This document shows positions 16,275-49,247 of a DNA stretch of 64,000 nt, one piece after another. This stretch comes from Streptosporangium brasiliense (lineage in GTDB: Bacteria; Actinomycetota; Actinomycetes; Streptosporangiales; Streptosporangiaceae), in the NCBI RefSeq assembly GCF_030811595.1, contig NZ_JAUSRB010000002.1, positions 5,642,001 through 5,706,000 on the forward strand, written 5' to 3'. The notes beneath the pieces were generated by a model, which was given only the letters and a program-made list of their open reading frames with translations, was not told where the DNA came from and ran no database searches. Positions within the stretch are counted from its first letter, which is position 1; each line of letters opens with the position of its first letter. The position numbers and the translations under genes are program-made.

Positions 16275-16595
16275 CTACTGGAGCATGCCGAGGACGGTGT
16301 GCAGGGCGTCATCGATCTCTTCGATCTCGACTGGATCCAGGCGTCCCGCGAAGTCGCCCAGGCGGTGAGGGGCGACAGCCGTGGTCTGCTCGACCATGAT
16401 GCGTGTCTGCTTGCCGAGAAGTTCGACTTCGGGGCGGAAAGGCGCGGGAGGCGCACTGGCCGAGGTCGGGGCGATGAGCACGGTGGAGAGATGGGTCAGG
16501 AAGTCTGACTGGAGGATCACGGCGAAACGCTCGCCTCGTTGCTCATGGGCCATCGCGTCACGAGGGGCGCGCAGCCGATACACGTCACCACGCAC
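16275..16595 (-). CDS. MazF/PemK-like toxin
   Basis: 106 residues. RGDVYRLRAP, QRGERFAVILQSDFL, STVLIAPTSASAPPAPFRPEVEL and QTRIMVEQTTAV match the MazF/PemK (CcdB-like fold) endoribonuclease family. The R-x-x-x-x-V-Q loop and the Thr/Ser after VLIAPTS fit the active-site region. GTG start 16595 overlaps the antitoxin 3' end by 11 bp, the standard arrangement for co-translation. Expected role: mRNA interferase held inactive by the upstream gene product. Confidence 0.85.
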   Translation of the reverse strand: MRGDVYRLRAPRDAMAHEQRGERFAVILQSDFLTHLSTVLIAPTSASAPPAPFRPEVELLGKQTRIMVEQTTAVAPHRLGDFAGRLDPVEIEEIDDALHTVLGMLQ

Positions 16596-16815
16596 GCAGG
16601 TGCTCCGTGTCCTTCATGATTGCTTCTGCTTCGGCCCTGTCGGCGGGATCGTTGGCCAGCCTCTCGGCTGCGACTCGGGCCAGCTCCATGCGGTGGAGAC
16701 GCTGAGCGATGACGAGCGCTTCGCGGACGGCCTCGGTTGCGGAACGGCCGTCGGAGGTCAGCTCGTTCAGCGCCTTCTCGGCCTTGGCGTCCAGATCAAC
16801 AGTCAACATGCCCAT
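16585..16815 (-). CDS. ribbon-helix-helix antitoxin partner of the MazF-like toxin
   Basis: About 76 residues from ATG 16815 (MGMLTVDLDAKAEKALNELT); ATG 16809 is the alternative. A beta strand followed by two helices (SDGRSATEAVREALVIAQRL) fits an RHH DNA-binding antitoxin, and the acidic/Ala-rich C-terminal tail would wrap the toxin. Located immediately upstream of and overlapping the toxin gene. Expected to autoregulate the pair. Confidence 0.8.
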   Translation of the reverse strand: MGMLTVDLDAKAEKALNELTSDGRSATEAVREALVIAQRLHRMELARVAAERLANDPADRAEAEAIMKDTEHLRAW

Positions 16816-16914
16816 ATCTTCACTGTACGGCCAGGCCTCTCGCAGGGCTTCGACCGAATTCCGCAATCATGTCGATGCTCAGGGTAATCAGATCTCGAGG
16901 AAAGGAAAGTGATC

Positions 16915-41919: not shown

Positions 41920-43149
41920 ATGAGTGACACAGAGCTGTACGGCCCCCGCAAGTTCCGCAACACCCAGAAGATGCTCGCCCACAGCCAGGCCAGCTGGCAG
42001 GCCGCCGAGGACAAGGGGCTGATAGACCTCTACGTGAGAAACGGCACGGACGGAGTCCTGGCCGACGTCTCGGACGGGCGCGAGTTCGTCAACATGAGCT
42101 CCTACTCCTATCTCGGGCTGAACCGGCACCCCGCCGTCATCCAGGGAGCGATCGACGCCCTGGAGCAGGAGCGGATCACCGGGCTGGGCATCACGCCCAC
42201 CCGGATGCAGCCCGCCCTCATGAACGAGGTGCAGGAGGGGTTCTCCCAGCTGTTCGACGCCCAGTGCCTGGTCGCGCTGTCCTGCACGGTGGCCACCGCC
42301 GCCCTCCTGCCGCTCGTCTCCTCGGGTGTGCTCATCGACGGCAAGCCGAGGGTCACGGTCTTCGACAAGCGCAGCCACTTCTGCATGGACGTGATGAAAC
42401 CGGTGTGCGCCGACGAGAGCCCCGTCTTCACCAGCCCGCACAACGACATGAACTTCATCGAGGACATGTGCAAGAAGTATCCGAGGGTGGCCTACATCGC
42501 CGACGGGGCCTACTCGATGGGCGGCGTGGCCAACCTGGCCGACCTGCTGGCCCTGCAGGACCGCTACGGGCTGTTCCTGTGGTTCGACGACTCGCACTCC
42601 ATCTCCGTCTGGGGCGACAAGGGCGAGGGATATGTGAAGTCGCAGCTCGGTGAGCTGAATCCGTTGACCCTCATCACGGGCTCGCTGGAGAAGGGCTTCG
42701 GGTGCGCCGGCGGCATCATCATGCTGGGCCGGCAGAACGTCAAAAGCCTCATCAACATCTTCGCCGGGCCGATGTGCTGGTCGCAGAGCATGGGCGTGGC
42801 CAACCTCGGGAGCCTCCGGGCGTGCGTCGGCATCCACGACAGCCCCGAACTGGGCGAGCTCCAGCGCTCGCTGCAGGACAACATCAGCTATTTCGACGGA
42901 CGGGTGCCCACCGGGCTCCAGGGCAGCAAGCTGCCCGTCCGGGCCCTCGCCGTCGGCGACACCGCGCTCGCCGTCCAACTGTCGAACGGCCTGTTCGGCG
43001 AGGGCTTCTACTCGGCGCCGGTCTACTACCCGATCACCTCCCGGGGCAGGGAGGGACTGCGGATCATGATCCGGGCGGACATCGACCGGGAGGACCTCAC
43101 CCGGTTCTGCGATCTCCTCGACAAAGACGTGCTGCCGCACGTGATCTGA
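41920..43149 (+). CDS. alpha-oxoamine synthase family PLP enzyme (KBL/SPT/CqsA-like)
   Basis: 409 residues. PLP fold type I, alpha-oxoamine synthase branch: VNMSSYSYLGLNRHPAVIQG, DGAYSMGGVANLADLLAL, LWFDDSHSISVWGDKGEGYV (Asp/His about 223-226), and Schiff-base Lys about 258 in GSLEKGFGCAGG. Catalyses decarboxylative Claisen condensation of an amino acid with an acyl-CoA to give an alpha-aminoketone. AGGAAGG five nt before the ATG. First gene of a tightly coupled six-gene operon; in the proposed pathway it would join the substituted succinyl-CoA-type unit to an amino acid. Confidence 0.92.
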   Translation: MSDTELYGPRKFRNTQKMLAHSQASWQAAEDKGLIDLYVRNGTDGVLADVSDGREFVNMSSYSYLGLNRHPAVIQGAIDALEQERITGLGITPTRMQPALMNEVQEGFSQLFDAQCLVALSCTVATAALLPLVSSGVLIDGKPRVTVFDKRSHFCMDVMKPVCADESPVFTSPHNDMNFIEDMCKKYPRVAYIADGAYSMGGVANLADLLALQDRYGLFLWFDDSHSISVWGDKGEGYVKSQLGELNPLTLITGSLEKGFGCAGGIIMLGRQNVKSLINIFAGPMCWSQSMGVANLGSLRACVGIHDSPELGELQRSLQDNISYFDGRVPTGLQGSKLPVRALAVGDTALAVQLSNGLFGEGFYSAPVYYPITSRGREGLRIMIRADIDREDLTRFCDLLDKDVLPHVI

Positions 43150-43985
43150 TGAACACCACATACCTGTGCAGAAGCCTGATGGTCACCTCGGCCCTGCGGA
43201 TGGACCGGTTCGTCAAGGGCCAGACCGCCGGCGCCGACATCAACCTGATCGACCTGGAGGACGCGGTCCCGCAGGCCGACAAGGAAAGGGCGCGCAACGA
43301 GTTCCTGCGGCTCGAGCGCGCCGAGGTGACCGGCACGCTGGGCCTGCGGATCAACAGCCTTCAGACCAGGGACGGCCTGGAGGATCTGATCGCGGTGCTC
43401 GACAGCCCCACCGAGCCGGACATCATCGTCGTTCCGAAGGTGGAGTCGCCGCACCAGATCGAGCACGTCGACGGCGTGCTCGGCCGGGCCGGCCGCAGGA
43501 GCCGGCTGTGGGCCCTGGTGGAGACTCCCAAGGGCGTCTCCGACGCGATGAGCATCGCCACCTGCAGCGACCGGTTGGTGGCGCTGACGTTCGGGCTCGC
43601 CGACTACGCGGCCGAGATGGGCGCCTCCATGGAGTGGGAGGCCATGCTCTTCGCCCGGTCGCAGGTGGTGACGGCCGCCCGGGGCGCCGGGATCGACGCG
43701 GTCGACGCGCCCACCTTCGACCTCGACGACCTCGGGCTCCTGCGCGCGGAGTCGCGCAGGTCGGCCGACATGGGATTCAGCGGGAAGATCGCGATCCATC
43801 CCCGCCAGCTCCCGGTGATCAACGAGATCTACAGCCCCACCGCCCAGGCCGTGGAGTGGGCGCAGGAGGTGGTCTCCACGTTCGAGCGCGAAAGCGCAGG
43901 CATCCTGACCGTCGGCAGCCTGATGGTCGGACCCCCGTTCTTGAAGAAGGCGCGGAGCATTCTGGCGCTTGTGGAGGATGAATGA
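43149..43985 (+). CDS. HpcH/HpaI aldolase / citrate lyase beta (CitE)-like enzyme
   Basis: 278 residues, TIM barrel. CRSLMVTSALRMDRFVKGQT, INLIDLEDAVP (metal Glu/Asp), LRINSLQTRDGLEDL, IVVPKVESPHQIEHVDG, LWALVETPKG, LTFGLADYAAEMGAS, and MGFSGKIAIHPRQLPVINEI are all typical CitE/malyl-CoA lyase features. Forms or cleaves a C-C bond beta to a CoA thioester, with a 2-oxo acid as partner. Start ATG overlaps the previous stop codon by one base (TGATG). Proposed to make a malyl-CoA-like intermediate. Confidence 0.92.
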   Translation: MNTTYLCRSLMVTSALRMDRFVKGQTAGADINLIDLEDAVPQADKERARNEFLRLERAEVTGTLGLRINSLQTRDGLEDLIAVLDSPTEPDIIVVPKVESPHQIEHVDGVLGRAGRRSRLWALVETPKGVSDAMSIATCSDRLVALTFGLADYAAEMGASMEWEAMLFARSQVVTAARGAGIDAVDAPTFDLDDLGLLRAESRRSADMGFSGKIAIHPRQLPVINEIYSPTAQAVEWAQEVVSTFERESAGILTVGSLMVGPPFLKKARSILALVEDE

Positions 43986-44494
43986 AAGACGTCCAGGCGT
44001 TCCAGCACCTCGGCGGGCGCCGCTACCGCGAGAACCGTGGCGTGTTCTACGACGAGTTCGAGGTCGGGGACATCATCGAGCACCGTCCGGGACGGACCGT
44101 CACCGAGACCGACAACGTCTGGCAGTCCCTGCTCGCGCTGAACAACCACCCCCTGCACATCGACCACGCCTACGCGCGCACCACCGAGTTCGGCCGGCCG
44201 CTGGTGTCGAGCCTGGTGACGCTCTCCATCGTCGGCGGGATGAGCACCAACGGGACCAGCGCCAAGGCGATCGCCAACCTGGGCTGGGAGAGCATCCGGC
44301 TGCCCAACCCCGTCTTCGTCGGGGACACGCTCTACGCGGAGACGGAGGTCGTCGCCATGAGGCCGTCCCGCTCGCGGCCGACCGCCGGCATCGTGACCTT
44401 CGAGACGAAGGGCCTCAAGGACGACGGCACCCTGGTGGTGGTCTTCACACGGTCGGCGCTGATCCCGCTGGGCGGCGGGATCGACCCGGCATGA
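43982..44494 (+). CDS. MaoC-type (hot-dog) dehydratase
   Basis: 170 residues. FYDEFEVGDIIEHRPGRTVT, ETDNVWQSLLALNNHPLHID (hydratase motif with catalytic Asp/His region), FGRPLVSSLVTLSIVGG, NPVFVGDTLYAETEV. Closest in pattern to mesaconyl-CoA hydratase/MaoC-like enzymes that act on branched dicarboxylyl-CoA. ATGA overlap with the aldolase gene. Follows the aldolase logically: dehydration of its hydroxyacyl-CoA product. Confidence 0.92.
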   Translation: MKDVQAFQHLGGRRYRENRGVFYDEFEVGDIIEHRPGRTVTETDNVWQSLLALNNHPLHIDHAYARTTEFGRPLVSSLVTLSIVGGMSTNGTSAKAIANLGWESIRLPNPVFVGDTLYAETEVVAMRPSRSRPTAGIVTFETKGLKDDGTLVVVFTRSALIPLGGGIDPA

Positions 44495-45429
44495 CGGCCC
44501 TCAGGGTCGTCGGCGGCGCCGAGATCGAGGCGGGCGCCGACCTGCGTGAACTGATCGGGGACATGGAGAGCTCGCTACGCGACGACGTGCGCCGCCACTC
44601 CGTCACCCCGGCCAGGTTCATGGAGGTCCGCGACAGCCCCTACTCGGTCTTCGGCGCCATGCCGTCGATGAGCGACCCGCACGACCTGTTCGTGACCAAG
44701 GTCGCCGCGCTGGTCGACGCGGGCGGCGGGGCGGCGCCGGGCAGGACCACCGTCAACGCGGTGGTGGTGGTGTTCTCGATCAGCACCGGCGAGGCGCTGG
44801 CCGTTCTCGACGGCGCCGCCCTGACCGACGTCAAATGCGCGGCGATCACCGGCCTGGTCACCGACCTGTGCGCGACGCCGCACGCCCGGACCCTCGGCGT
44901 GGTCGGGACGGGCGCGCTCGCCCTGCAGCAGGTGCGCGGGGCCGCCGCGGTCAGGGACCTCGACCGGGTGACGGTCTACGGCCGCGACCCGGACCGGGCC
45001 GGCCGGTTCGCCGACCGCGCGCGGCGCTCACTCGGCGGCGCGGTGGAGGTGGCCGTCACCTCCTCGCTCCGCGAGGCCGTCGAGGGCCAGGACGTCGTCT
45101 GCACCGCCACGACGTCGAGCGAGCCGCTGCTGACCGGCTTCGACCTCCCGCCGCCGGTGCACGTCAACTGCATGGGCTCCCACACCCCCGAGTCCCGGGA
45201 GGTGAGCGCCGAACTGCTGGAGAGCAGCGTCCTGCTGGTGGAGGACCGCGCGACCGCGGTCCGCGAGGCCGGGCACCGGCACCACCGGGCTCTGGAGCTG
45301 GAGGAGGCGCTGCGCCGGGGGCCCGAGCTGCGCGCGGCACGGACGGTCTTCAGCTCGGTGGGCCACGGGTTCCTGGACCTGGAGACCACCGCGCACATCC
45401 TGAAGCGGCTGGGCGGTGCGCGTCGGTGA
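44491..45429 (+). CDS. ornithine cyclodeaminase / mu-crystallin family dehydrogenase
   Basis: 312 residues. Rossmann domain with LGVVGTGALALQQVRGAAAV, preceded by the Lys/Asp substrate region (FVTKVAALVDAG, TDVKCAAITGLVTDLC). Later motifs: DVVCTATTSSEPLL, VHVNCMGSHTPESREVSAEL, VLLVEDRATAVREAGH and FSSVGHGFLDLETTAHI. NAD(P)-dependent member of the OCD/alanine dehydrogenase/ketimine reductase group. In this operon it could reduce an imine, ketone or enoyl intermediate. ATGA overlap upstream. Confidence 0.9.
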   Translation: MTALRVVGGAEIEAGADLRELIGDMESSLRDDVRRHSVTPARFMEVRDSPYSVFGAMPSMSDPHDLFVTKVAALVDAGGGAAPGRTTVNAVVVVFSISTGEALAVLDGAALTDVKCAAITGLVTDLCATPHARTLGVVGTGALALQQVRGAAAVRDLDRVTVYGRDPDRAGRFADRARRSLGGAVEVAVTSSLREAVEGQDVVCTATTSSEPLLTGFDLPPPVHVNCMGSHTPESREVSAELLESSVLLVEDRATAVREAGHRHHRALELEEALRRGPELRAARTVFSSVGHGFLDLETTAHILKRLGGARR

Positions 45430-46832
45430 CCCTCACCGCGCGCCGCTCCGGCGGCCTGCTGGCCGCGATGCTGTGCGCCATGACCGTGCAGCCGATCGCG
45501 CAGACCATGGTGGTGCCGATCCTGCCGTCGCTGGCCGGCGAGTTCGCCGTGTCCGCCTCCGACGTCAGCTGGGTGATGACCGCCAACCTGCTGGCCGCCG
45601 CGGTGCTCACCCCGATCCTCGGCCGGCTCGGCGACCTGCACGGCCGCCGACGCCTGCTGCTGCTGTCGCTGCTGGGCACGGTCGCCGGCTCGGTGCTGGC
45701 GGTCTCGACCCACTCCTTCGCCCTGCTGCTGGTGGCGCGGGCGCTGCACGGGATCGGCGGGGGCGTGCTGCCGCTGGCGTTCGGCGTCATCCGGGCCGAG
45801 CTCCCCCCGGAGCGGGCGGCCCGCGGGATGGCCATGGTCAGCACCAGCATGGGCATCGGCAGCGGTCTCGGGGTGGTGGCCGCCGGTCTGCTGATGGAGT
45901 GGTGGGACTACCGGGCGGTCTTCTGGCTGCTGCTCGTGCTCGGACTGCTGGCGGCGGCGGCGGTCGCGCTGTCCGTCCCGGCCGACCGGGGGACCGACCG
46001 GGAGGGGGGCGGGACGAGCCCGCTGGCGGCCGTCACCCTGGCTGTCTGGCTGTGCGCGCTGCTGGTCGCGGTCAGCCAGGGCAACGGCTGGGGATGGACC
46101 GGCACCCGGGTTCTCGGACTGCTGTCGGTGGCCGCGGTGGTCTGCGCCCTCTGGCTCCGGGTCGAGAGCAGGACGCGTCACCCGCTGATCGACCTGAGGA
46201 TGCTGGCCCGGCCGACGGTCGCGCTCACCAACCTCGCCGCCACGCTGACCGGCTTCGGCATGTACGGCGCCTACATCGTGATGACGTCCTTCGCCCAGGT
46301 GCCGCAGGAGTACGGCTTCGGCTTCTCGGCCACCGTGCTGATCGCGGGCCTGATGCTGCTGCCGAACTCGGCCGGCAACCTGGCCGCCGGCACGCTCGCC
46401 GCCGCGCTGATCGCCCGGCGCGGCCCGCGGACGCCGCTGGTGCTCGGCGGCCTCCTCGGCGCGGCGGCGATGGCCTTCCTGACCGTCCGGCACGGCTCGG
46501 CGGTCGACCTCTACCTGGCCGGCGGCGTGTTCGGGCTCGGCACCGGCCTGGCCTTCGCCGCCATCCCCGTCTACGTCAACAGCGCGGTGCCGCCCGGGCA
46601 GACCGCCGTGGCCAACGGCACGAACGCCGTGCTGCGCACCATCGGCGCCGCCGCCGGCAGCGCGGTGACCGGCGCGGTGCTCGCCGGTGACACGGTCGCG
46701 GGCACCGCGTCCCCGACGCTCCACGCCTACCAGGCGGCTTTCATGATCACAGCGGCCGGGTTCCTGGCCGCCGCCGCCGTGCCGTTCGCCATCCGGTCCC
46801 GGCCGGTCCCCGTCCATGAGGAGATCTCTTGA
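45426..46832 (+). CDS. MFS transporter (DHA2-type exporter)
   Basis: 468 residues from GTG 45426, overlapping the dehydrogenase stop codon (GTGA). Thirteen to fourteen helices. Early motif A GRLGDLHGRRRLLLLSLLG, TM4-5 LLLVARALHGIGGGVLPLAFGVI and motif C-like SMGIGSGLGVVAAGLLMEWWDYRAVFWL place it with drug:H+ antiporters. Likely exports the product of the operon and gives self-protection. Confidence 0.92.
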   Translation: MTLTARRSGGLLAAMLCAMTVQPIAQTMVVPILPSLAGEFAVSASDVSWVMTANLLAAAVLTPILGRLGDLHGRRRLLLLSLLGTVAGSVLAVSTHSFALLLVARALHGIGGGVLPLAFGVIRAELPPERAARGMAMVSTSMGIGSGLGVVAAGLLMEWWDYRAVFWLLLVLGLLAAAAVALSVPADRGTDREGGGTSPLAAVTLAVWLCALLVAVSQGNGWGWTGTRVLGLLSVAAVVCALWLRVESRTRHPLIDLRMLARPTVALTNLAATLTGFGMYGAYIVMTSFAQVPQEYGFGFSATVLIAGLMLLPNSAGNLAAGTLAAALIARRGPRTPLVLGGLLGAAAMAFLTVRHGSAVDLYLAGGVFGLGTGLAFAAIPVYVNSAVPPGQTAVANGTNAVLRTIGAAAGSAVTGAVLAGDTVAGTASPTLHAYQAAFMITAAGFLAAAAVPFAIRSRPVPVHEEIS

Positions 46833-48403
46833 GTTCTGCAGGCCAACCCGCGTCGGGCATCTCCCGCCGGGCGATGCTGAAGGCCGGTGGCGCCGTCGTC
46901 GGCGGGTATGTGGGAGGGACCGCCGACGCCACCGCCGCCCGCGCGCACGCGGCGGTGGAGCCGCCCTCGCCCGCCCCGGCGGCCCGGGTGACGGTGAGCG
47001 GCACGGACCCGGTCGCCCTCGCCGCCGAGATGATCAAGTTCGACACCTCGCACGCCGGGCGCAGCGGCTCGGACACCGGCGGCGGTGCCGTGACCCTGGC
47101 GCACGCCCGCATGCTGGAGGGCCTGTGGCGGTCCGCGGGCGTGCCGACCGAGCTCGTCCCGACCCCCAAGGCCGACAACGTGCACCTCATCGCCAGGGTC
47201 ACCGGCAGGGGAGACCGCCCGCCGCTGCTCTTCATGGCCCACTCCGACGTGGTCACGGTGGAGCGGAGCCGCTGGAGCCGCGATCCCTACGGCGGCGCCG
47301 TCGAGGACGGCTGGCTCTACGGCCGCGGGGCCGTGGACATGAAGGGCGCCTCCGCCGCGTTCATGGCCGCCCTCCTGCGGCACGTCCGGGAGGGCGCGGA
47401 GTTCGACCGGGACATCATCTTCCTGTCCGACTGCGACGAGGAGGGCGGGCCGTACGGCGCGCAGTGGCTGGTGGACAACCACTACGACAAGGTCACCGCC
47501 GGAGTGGCCGTCACGGAGGGCGGCTGGGTGCTGAACCAGTCGGACGGCACGACCCCCATGCTCGCGTCGCTGTCCTGCCGGGACCGGGTCTCCCTCCTCC
47601 TGGAGCTGACCGCCACCGGTGTCACGACGCACTCCTCGCACCCGGACGACGGGCCCGCCGTCGGGCGGCTGGGCGGCGCCCTGGCCCGGCTGGCCCGCCA
47701 CCGGCCCGCGATCGGGCTGAGCGACCTGGTCAGGGAGTACTTCACGGTGCTCGCCCGCAGCACCCGCGACCAGGAGTTCTCCAGGGCGATCACCCGGCTG
47801 CTGGCGGCCGGGACCCAGCAGGAGCGGGACGCCGCGGGGGCCAGGGTCATCGAGCTCAGCGACTACCCGTGGGTGCACACCCCGATGCTGCGGGCCACGC
47901 TGTCGTTCCTCGGCCAGCAGGCCGGTTACTACACCAGCATCGTGCCGTCCACGGCCCGTGCCGACGTGCGCGTGGGTTTCGTCCCCGACGGCGAGGACCC
48001 CGCCCGGGTGGTCGCCGAGATCCGCCGCCTGGTGGCCGAGTGGTCGGTGACGGTCCGGGTGGTCGGCCGCCCCGACGAGACGGAGGAGCAGATCCTCGCC
48101 CGGGTGCGCAAGACGCTCTCCCGGCCGACCTCCCCCGTCACCACCGACGTGTACGACATGTGGAAGCGGGCCGCGCGCGAGACGTATCCCGGCATCGGCG
48201 TGGTCCCGTCGCAGTTCGAGGCGAACACGAGCGCGGGCCCCTGGCGTGACAAGGGGATCCCGGTCTACGGGCTGTATCCCTACGCCGTCGACGGCGACAC
48301 GGTGACCCGGATGCACGGCGACGACGAGCGCGTCAGGGTGACGGCGCTGCGCACCGGCACCGACATGGTCTACCGGATGCTGGCCGGGATGCGGACGGGC
48401 TGA
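46829..48403 (+). CDS. Tat-exported M20 family metallopeptidase
   Basis: 524 residues from a TTG start that overlaps the transporter stop codon (TTGA) with GAGGAG upstream. Twin-arginine signal ISRRAMLKAGGAVVGGY with ARAHA cleavage. Zinc ligands: FMAHSDVV, GRGAVDMKG, DCDEEGGPYG and a late His region (VTRMHGDDERV). Typical of M20A carboxypeptidase/acylase enzymes that remove a C-terminal residue or N-acyl group. Export in a biosynthetic operon suggests extracellular maturation of a secreted precursor, or hydrolysis of a competitor peptide. Confidence 0.92.
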   Translation: MSSAGQPASGISRRAMLKAGGAVVGGYVGGTADATAARAHAAVEPPSPAPAARVTVSGTDPVALAAEMIKFDTSHAGRSGSDTGGGAVTLAHARMLEGLWRSAGVPTELVPTPKADNVHLIARVTGRGDRPPLLFMAHSDVVTVERSRWSRDPYGGAVEDGWLYGRGAVDMKGASAAFMAALLRHVREGAEFDRDIIFLSDCDEEGGPYGAQWLVDNHYDKVTAGVAVTEGGWVLNQSDGTTPMLASLSCRDRVSLLLELTATGVTTHSSHPDDGPAVGRLGGALARLARHRPAIGLSDLVREYFTVLARSTRDQEFSRAITRLLAAGTQQERDAAGARVIELSDYPWVHTPMLRATLSFLGQQAGYYTSIVPSTARADVRVGFVPDGEDPARVVAEIRRLVAEWSVTVRVVGRPDETEEQILARVRKTLSRPTSPVTTDVYDMWKRAARETYPGIGVVPSQFEANTSAGPWRDKGIPVYGLYPYAVDGDTVTRMHGDDERVRVTALRTGTDMVYRMLAGMRTG

Positions 48404-48601: not shown

Positions 48602-48985
48602 TCAGGAGTCGAGGGCCGTCTCCTGCTCCGCCGGCCGCGCGTCGGGATGGGCGGAGACGAACAGCTCCACGACCTCGTCGGGGATCTTCCCTCGAGAGGG
48701 AACCTCCAGCTCCTGCTCGCGCGCCCATTCACGCACGTCGGTGTGGGTGTATCCCTGGAGTCGGGGACCGGTGTCGGCGGCCTTCCTCGAACGCGTGGCC
48801 TGCTTGACCTCGCGGGCGTTCTCCAGGACCTTCTCGATGAAGGTGAGGGCGTCGCTGAGCCGCTGCTGATTGGCGTCGGACAGGTCGATGGCGAAGGTCC
48901 GGTTCAGCAACGGGAACTCCCGCCGCACCACGTCATCGCCCTCGGAGTGGTCGAGGTCGTCGACCAGTATTACCTTCTGCGCCAC
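48602..48985 (-). CDS. lsr2: Lsr2-type nucleoid-associated protein, divergent paralogue
   Basis: 127 residues from GTG 48985 (AAAGG about 8 nt upstream). N-terminal dimerisation domain VILVDDLDHSEGDDVVRREF, RTFAIDLSDANQQRLSDALTF; C-terminal DNA-binding domain VREWAREQELEVPSRGKIPDEVVELF. The minor-groove motif RGR of canonical Lsr2 is RGK here, and several N-terminal positions differ (DHSEGD for DGSEAD). Lsr2 silences AT-rich, horizontally acquired and secondary-metabolite genes; this copy lies right beside such an operon. Confidence 0.9.
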   Translation of the reverse strand: MAQKVILVDDLDHSEGDDVVRREFPLLNRTFAIDLSDANQQRLSDALTFIEKVLENAREVKQATRSRKAADTGPRLQGYTHTDVREWAREQELEVPSRGKIPDEVVELFVSAHPDARPAEQETALDS

Positions 48986-49247
48986 TTGCAGCCCTTTCCG
49001 GTGAAACTCCGTCTGTCTGGACCGTGGCATCCTACTGAGGATCCACCGGAACGCTGACGTTCTTGATCCGCCTTTCGCCAAGGCAGGGTGCTTCACCGGC
49101 TCTCGATCCGGGGCCGCCGCGCCGGCCGGTCCCGGCCGCTCGGCGGGCCCGTTCCGTGACCGCGATTGGACGACGGCACAACGGATCGAGCCCGGGTTCG
49201 TCGTGGAGACCGAAGAAGCGGTAATGGGCCAGGTCTAACGTTCGGAC

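Follow-up and report, generated by a model that had tools for sequence, protein, structure and literature searches.

A six-gene overlapping operon of Streptosporangium brasiliense with a variant carbonylmethylene-type core and a probable reductase of a different enzyme class

INTRODUCTION

What is made by a series of six overlapping genes in Streptosporangium brasiliense that encode a synthase, an aldolase, a dehydratase, a reductase, an exporter, and a peptidase? The genes lie in a 64,000-nucleotide stretch of contig NZ_JAUSRB010000002.1 (positions 5,642,001 to 5,706,000; hereafter, the window), and a preliminary description had seen in them a ligase-less pathway to carbonylmethylene (ketomethylene) pseudodipeptides of the ketomemicin type. 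Such compounds are of interest as protease inhibitors, and the accessible text of PMC11943689 gives the arphamenines and ketomemicins as the only known natural ketomethylene pseudopeptides. The same text assigns the ketomemicin (ktm) genes as follows: ktmA, aldolase; ktmB, pyridoxal phosphate (PLP)-dependent acyltransferase; ktmC, dehydratase; ktmD, ATP-grasp ligase; ktmE, amidinotransferase; and ktmF, dehydrogenase. In the loci compared here, ktm genes were recognized from their homology class and their position rather than from locus tags. Our comparisons indicate that the operon is real and that it has a variant of this core, with a reductase of a different enzyme class than that of the ktm clusters.

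RESULTS

Six genes joined by overlaps

The operon comprises the following genes, all on one strand (41920-48403 of the window).

41920-43149, forward strand: gene A, PLP-dependent alpha-oxoamine synthase of the KtmB/Alb29 type (Pfam Aminotran_1_2)
43149-43985, forward strand: gene B, HpcH/CitE-type aldolase, KtmA-like (Pfam HpcH_HpaI, 117 bits)
43982-44494, forward strand: gene C, MaoC-type dehydratase, KtmC-like (Pfam MaoC and MC_hydratase)
44491-45429, forward strand: gene D, reductase of the ornithine cyclodeaminase (OCD)/mu-crystallin family, proposed stand-in for the medium-chain dehydrogenase/reductase (MDR) KtmF (Pfam OCD_Mu_crystall)
45426-46832, forward strand: gene E, exporter-like protein of the major facilitator superfamily (MFS), DHA2-like, GTG start (MFS_1, 165 bits)
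46829-48403, forward strand: gene F, M20 metallopeptidase, TTG start, carrying a putative twin-arginine signal (Peptidase_M20, 90 bits)

The overlaps at the five junctions are 1, 4, 4, 4, and 4 bases (in the order A to F, CTGATGA, GGATGAATG, GGCATGAC, CGGTGACC, and CTTGAG), bearing out the claim of a fully overlapping operon, and all six of the protein families named in the preliminary description were matched by Pfam. The purine-rich sequence AGGAAGG lies immediately 5' of the ATG of gene A.

Identity of the synthase, aldolase, and dehydratase

The product of gene A belongs to family PRK07505 (458 bits; cutoff, 342) and is 50% identical to the KtmB homologue of Micromonospora sp. ATCC 39149. 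Its best solved relatives are 8xha, 8xhd, 8xhk, and 8i7u (E values from 6e-90 to 3e-89), the next structure following at 1.5e-24, and it falls below the NCBIfam equivalog cutoffs for KBL (108 of 493 bits), BioF (122 of 426), and ALAS (76 of 339). The closest solved oxoamine synthase is Alb29 of the albogrisin pathway (PDB 8XHA), which uses L-glutamate and acyl-CoAs (accessible text of PMC11906848).

Trees of A, B, and D were quick trees with many long branches, supported only by the Shimodaira-Hasegawa-like approximate likelihood ratio test (SH-aLRT). The tree of A has 98 rows, of which 91 belong to the synthase group and 7 to an outgroup (three KBL and one ALAS over their cutoffs and three with BioF as best model but below its cutoff), and the two sets separate at a starred support of 100. 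The preliminary description had named a synthase grouping with KBL or BioF as evidence against itself; A instead groups with KtmB homologues, apart from KBL, ALAS, and BioF-like proteins. Within the group, A joins successively Micromonospora sp. RP3T (95, starred), Agrobacterium rubi (99, starred), and a Bdellovibrionales bin in which no reductase was found (96, starred). By path length, myxobacterial and Streptomyces synthases of the MDR type come next.

The product of gene B has RipC_Ccl as its best NCBIfam model (245 bits, under the cutoff of 375), is 43% identical to the KtmA homologue of Micromonospora sp. ATCC 39149, and keeps the DLED, R-x-N, ET, and AD positions in the alignment. Its tree contains 77 rows, 67 of them cluster aldolases and 10 of them paralogues from the same genomes, typed to the level of HpcH/CitE. 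These split at 97 (starred), which sets B apart from the paralogues (the preliminary description had named a grouping with primary-metabolism CitE as evidence against itself), and the B proteins of the window and of the Micromonospora sp. RP3T (L025) and A. rubi (L026) loci form one clade (95, starred). Gene C has RipB_Ich as its best NCBIfam model (191 bits, under the cutoff of 340) and is 62% identical to the KtmC homologue of Micromonospora sp. ATCC 39149.

Recurrence of the core

A single-sequence contig search with gene A gave no relative, and a four-sequence alignment of A was used instead. The census covers the best 80 of 101 relatives of A and hence only the nearest part of the family. 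Homologues of A, B, and C occur together within 7 kb of A in 61 of these 80 loci, including the ktm loci of Salinispora and Micromonospora sp. ATCC 39149; two more loci have only A and B, and two have only A and C.

The order A-B-C-D recurs in L025, in L026, and on a Rhizobium lusitanum plasmid (L013, which falls outside the 80 census loci), so the grouping is more than chance. Two Pseudomonas loci (L090 and L095) also show the order A, B, C, and OCD, the last being a distant one. L025 and L026 share with the window the four core genes in identical order, their A proteins are 63 and 58% identical to that of the window, and both their A and their B proteins fall in a starred clade with it. Neither has a homologue of F, nor of E at an E value of ≤1e-4. 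In L026, genes for a weakly matching ATP-grasp protein, an FAD/NAD-binding protein, and an AbrB-family membrane protein precede A, and a luciferase-like monooxygenase gene follows D.

The preliminary description had suggested searching for the six-gene order elsewhere. The A-B-C-D core recurs, but the six-gene order was seen in no other locus: no homologue of F (E ≤ 1e-3) was found in the 101 loci, and the full order is therefore known only in the window. Because of the homologies, the tree positions, and the recurrent gene order, a carbonylmethylene-type core is supported for the window.

The R. lusitanum A-B-C-OCD unit (2864-10706 of L013) lies on a 2.4-Mb plasmid and is preceded by genes for a DmpG-like aldolase, an acetaldehyde dehydrogenase, and a carbamoyltransferase. 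A larger, Streptomyces-type cluster (L020, in genome G172, and similarly L073 and L076) combines an alpha-oxoamine synthase with an OCD enzyme, an M24 peptidase, a MaoC protein, and a CitE-type aldolase, and L020 additionally has IPMS-like, 2-oxoglutarate (2OG) oxygenase, AurF-like, tRNA-synthetase-like, and transketolase genes. We considered a connection between this AurF-bearing cluster and the hydroxamate work of PMC5719088 and dropped the idea, since the accessible text of that paper describes a different warhead pathway.

A probable reductase of a different class

Gene D matches PF02423 at 132 bits (cutoff, 24). Among proteins of solved structure, mu-crystallin and pyrroline-2-carboxylate reductase are the closest to its product. 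The GAD motif of lysine cyclodeaminase, whose Asp we take to be catalytic, is aligned to GSH in D, so that the cyclodeaminase Asp is missing. The Arg and Lys of the MP, K, and P-x-R positions, which presumably bind a carboxylate, are kept in the rows that cover them. From the GSH motif, the nearest relatives, and the kept positions, we infer that D is a reductase and not a cyclodeaminase.

The aldolase, PLP synthase, and MaoC dehydratase of the ktm clusters (Salinispora and Micromonospora sp. ATCC 39149) are homologous to those of the window, and the logic of the steps is alike (accessible text of PMC11943689). Beyond these three enzymes the two differ: the ktm clusters encode a dehydrogenase of the MDR class, an amidinotransferase, and an ATP-grasp ligase of the PGM1 type, and the operon of the window encodes the OCD reductase D, the MFS exporter E, and the M20 peptidase F with its putative twin-arginine signal. 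The ktm-type enzyme set of the preliminary description thus stands for three enzymes but not for the dehydrogenase: KtmF, as represented in L044, is an ADH_zinc protein (a zinc-type MDR), as is its counterpart in the myxobacterial locus L030, and D is not its homologue.

Among the 61 loci with A, B, and C, 25 have only an OCD reductase, 28 only an MDR reductase, 1 (L027) both, and 7 neither. The sequence available beside A is shorter than 7 kb on one side in 3 of the OCD-only loci, 7 of the MDR-only loci, and 3 of those with neither. The OCD-only loci lie in actinobacteria and proteobacteria, and of the 7 loci with neither reductase, 6 come from Mycobacterium and 1 from a Bdellovibrionales bin. 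By these counts, the window belongs to a second, widespread OCD subtype of the core. An OCD enzyme in a ketomethylene-type pathway was not found among the matches listed in the open PMC literature.

In the tree of D (46 rows), the window sequence falls in a clade (100, starred) whose 27 members are cluster-borne OCDs of Actinomycetota, Pseudomonadota, and Myxococcota. Outside this clade, the OCDs of L013, L075, L090, L094, and L095 group with two ordinary paralogues (87), L096 and L097 contribute a pair of OCDs (84), and the OCD of L027 groups with ordinary paralogues. We read this as one main recruitment of an OCD enzyme and at least one more, the latter on weaker branches.

In the Mycobacterium loci (L043, L055, L059, L063, L069, and L100) and the Bdellovibrionales locus L019 (G122), A-B-C is followed by an ATP-grasp protein, and no MDR or OCD enzyme was found. 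These may be a third subtype, in which the double bond is kept or otherwise reduced.

Absence of a ligase

No match to KtmD, KtmE, or KtmF queries from Salinispora fenicalii was found in the window, and the genome of S. brasiliense gave no match to ATP-grasp_4. With the genome-wide search for KtmD taken up below, these results agree with the claim that the operon is ligase-less. In the census, whole loci were searched with queries for PGM1, for L-amino acid ligase, and for two further proteins of the ATP-grasp type (for that of L019, with the core alone, after removal of an open reading frame [ORF] over-extension that matched MaoC genes, that of the window included, in another frame). Among the 25 OCD-only loci, L026 alone gave a ligase match, compared with 9 of the 28 MDR-only loci and 6 of the 7 that have neither reductase; these counts are lower bounds covering these query types. 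The lack of a ligase in the window is therefore typical of its subtype, and its product is probably a free, exported pseudodipeptide. The L025 unit has a gene resembling asparagine synthase on its downstream side.

The arphamenines are free pseudodipeptides, and a ligase-less product therefore has precedent. They are ketomethylene pseudopeptides of Chromobacterium violaceum (accessible text of PMC11943689), and no arphamenine gene cluster was found among the matches listed in the open PMC literature. A Salinispora mooreana locus (L052) has a partial ktm cluster in which the aldolase and KtmF were not found and the match to KtmD is short, in line with the partial ktm clusters reported in the accessible text of PMC11943689.

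Exporter and peptidase

The best NCBIfam model of gene E is efflux_EmrB (156 bits, under the cutoff of 230). The N-terminal region of F contains SRRAMLK, which we take to be a twin-arginine signal motif, and its translation carries AHSD, DMKG, DEEG, and MHG, presumably the motifs of an M20 metallopeptidase.

Comparable but unrelated neighbors occur elsewhere. Pseudomonas sp. W4I3 (L097) has an MFS gene between A and B; Pseudoduganella violacea (L096) has B-C-D-A followed by genes for an EamA transporter and for an M28 peptidase whose N terminus resembles a signal; and in Burkholderia ubonensis (L061) an M24 gene adjoins C, with an MFS gene 3' of D. An M24 gene also comes right after D in seven Streptomyces-type loci (L020, L073, L076, L078, L079, L081, and L099). 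Overall, of the 26 loci that contain an OCD gene, 11 have an M20-, M24-, or M28-type peptidase within 7 kb, and none was found in the 28 MDR-only loci, the 7 with neither reductase, or the 19 without A, B, and C together. The association is only a lead, because OCD loci supplied the queries and because the loci lack independence, several hits being near-copies of one Streptomyces-type cluster. A role of F in self-protection, or as a copy of the target, is possible, and we hold it with low confidence.

Genomic setting

The operon stands apart from its neighbors, with 805 bases to a divergent carotenoid-oxygenase (RPE65-family) ORF and 198 bases to the following gene.

48602-49096, reverse strand: gene for an Lsr2-type nucleoid protein, convergent with the operon and its next neighbor downstream

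Two promoter-like sites and one terminator-like site were predicted, none of which fits the operon. At E ≤ 1e-60, only one of the 16 genus genomes, that of the source itself, has a relative of gene A, as do 9 of 345 genomes of the order, and relatives at E ≤ 1e-40 occur in 4 of 394 genomes of the class, the source genome included in both counts. A downstream S9 peptidase gene has a close match in 6 of 16 genus genomes, including its own, and its surroundings were compared in four of the five others (G012, G010, G013, and G006). G012 and G010 keep the flanking ferritin-family and carotenoid-oxygenase genes (89 to 94%) and the S9 gene (81%), with 4 to 5 kb between the carotenoid-oxygenase and S9 genes and no match to A through F (E ≤ 1e-15) in that interval. 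The ferritin-family gene adjoins the S9 gene in G013 and lies 5.5 kb from it in G006, and the carotenoid-oxygenase gene was not found at the S9 locus of either. The operon is thus accessory and sits at a variable position of the genome. Compared with plasmids, its DNA gave no match spanning 80% of the operon. Elsewhere in the window, a PemK/MazF-like toxin gene lies at 16275-16866 (reverse strand), and a small ORF upstream of it may encode the antitoxin.

DISCUSSION

The six genes probably encode a variant of the ketomemicin-type pathway that exports a free pseudodipeptide. In this pathway, B would join an alpha-keto acid, derived from an amino acid by analogy to ktm, to acetyl-CoA, in the reverse of the RipC-type lyase reaction, and C would dehydrate the substituted malyl-CoA to a substituted mesaconyl-type CoA. 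The C=C bond of this product would be reduced by D, yielding a 2-substituted succinyl-CoA. Reductases of the OCD family put hydride on the carboxylate-bearing carbon of R-C(=NH)-COO-, and D would deliver it to the carboxyl-bearing carbon of a substituted fumaryl-CoA, R-C(=CH-CO-SCoA)-COO-, the same carbon as in the imine substrates. In a variant of this scheme, D would act after A, on the aminoenone or its imino-ketone tautomer. In the main scheme, A would join the 2-substituted succinyl-CoA to an amino acid in a decarboxylative condensation that gives a 5-amino-4-oxo acid (a ketomethylene pseudodipeptide), which E would export in free form because no peptide ligase follows. Outside the membrane, F would most likely act as a member of the peptidase class mimicked by the product, serving as self-protection or a copy of the target, and less likely as a maturation enzyme.

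Several observations weigh against this pathway. To our knowledge, OCD enzymes are C=N reductases or cyclodeaminases, and no C=C reductase of the OCD fold was found among the matches listed in the open PMC literature. The distribution of OCD and MDR on the tree of A requires 4 changes, and a test on independent pairs, with only 3 starred pairs, gave a P of 1; L027 carries both reductases; and the genome search that found no KtmD homologue had no positive control. In six Corallococcus loci (L057, L058, L060, L067, L071, and L072), A adjoins D with no B or C near and with an MDR gene within 7 kb. D therefore need not serve a B-C product there, and it could act after A in pathways of the Corallococcus type. 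An L-amino acid ligase homologue follows the A-D pair in 6 of 6 of these loci (in L060, the one scanned by Pfam, together with a 2OG oxygenase), and three of the strains (CA051B, CA053C, and CA040B) have a separate B-A-C-MDR locus.

These observations bear on an alternative in which D acts after A as a true imine reductase: A would take an unsaturated or diamino substrate, the resulting aminoketone would form an imine as a tautomer or ring, and D would reduce its C=N bond. The product would then be a cyclic amine or an aminoketone with a fixed configuration and not a plain ketomethylene dipeptide. The solved members of the family of D include C=N reductases, and A adjoins D in the Corallococcus loci and in those of the Streptomyces type. 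We nevertheless think this unlikely, as D comes after C rather than after A in the window and in L025, L026, and L013, and as the 25 OCD-only loci, if D did not replace KtmF, would be left with no remover of the double bond from the MDR and OCD families, the two that were sought. It is unlikely, too, that F matures the product by removing an N-terminal group outside the cell: the succession of exporter and exported-peptidase genes in one overlapping operon would suit such a role, but the operon is without a ligase or acyltransferase family to attach the group. Far less probable is a catabolic operon, composed of an itaconate- or citramalate-like lyase and hydratase, a housekeeping oxoamine synthase, an importer, and a nutrient peptidase. 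The best models of B and C, RipC and RipB, come from itaconate degradation, which involves the same type of reaction in the opposite sense; however, both scores are far under their cutoffs, the six genes include no CoA-transferase family, B and A stand apart from HpcH/CitE-type paralogues and from the housekeeping synthases, and A occurs in a single genome of the genus.

Ligase-free pseudodipeptides are already known from the arphamenines, and the four-gene core recurs among the loci surveyed, the addition of F being seen only in the window. Beyond this operon, it is possible, though doubtful, that there is a second, widespread ketomethylene branch, in which OCD/mu-crystallin-fold enzymes, recruited more than once, reduce the C=C bond (directly or via an imine tautomer) in the making of mostly ligase-free pseudodipeptides, and whose loci tend to carry a self-protective metallopeptidase. 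The window would be its first member seen with an exporter and an exported peptidase in one overlapping operon. If true, an OCD-fold enzyme at the reduction step would represent a new activity for a large enzyme family, and the peptidases encoded beside such pathways would point to the targets of their products.

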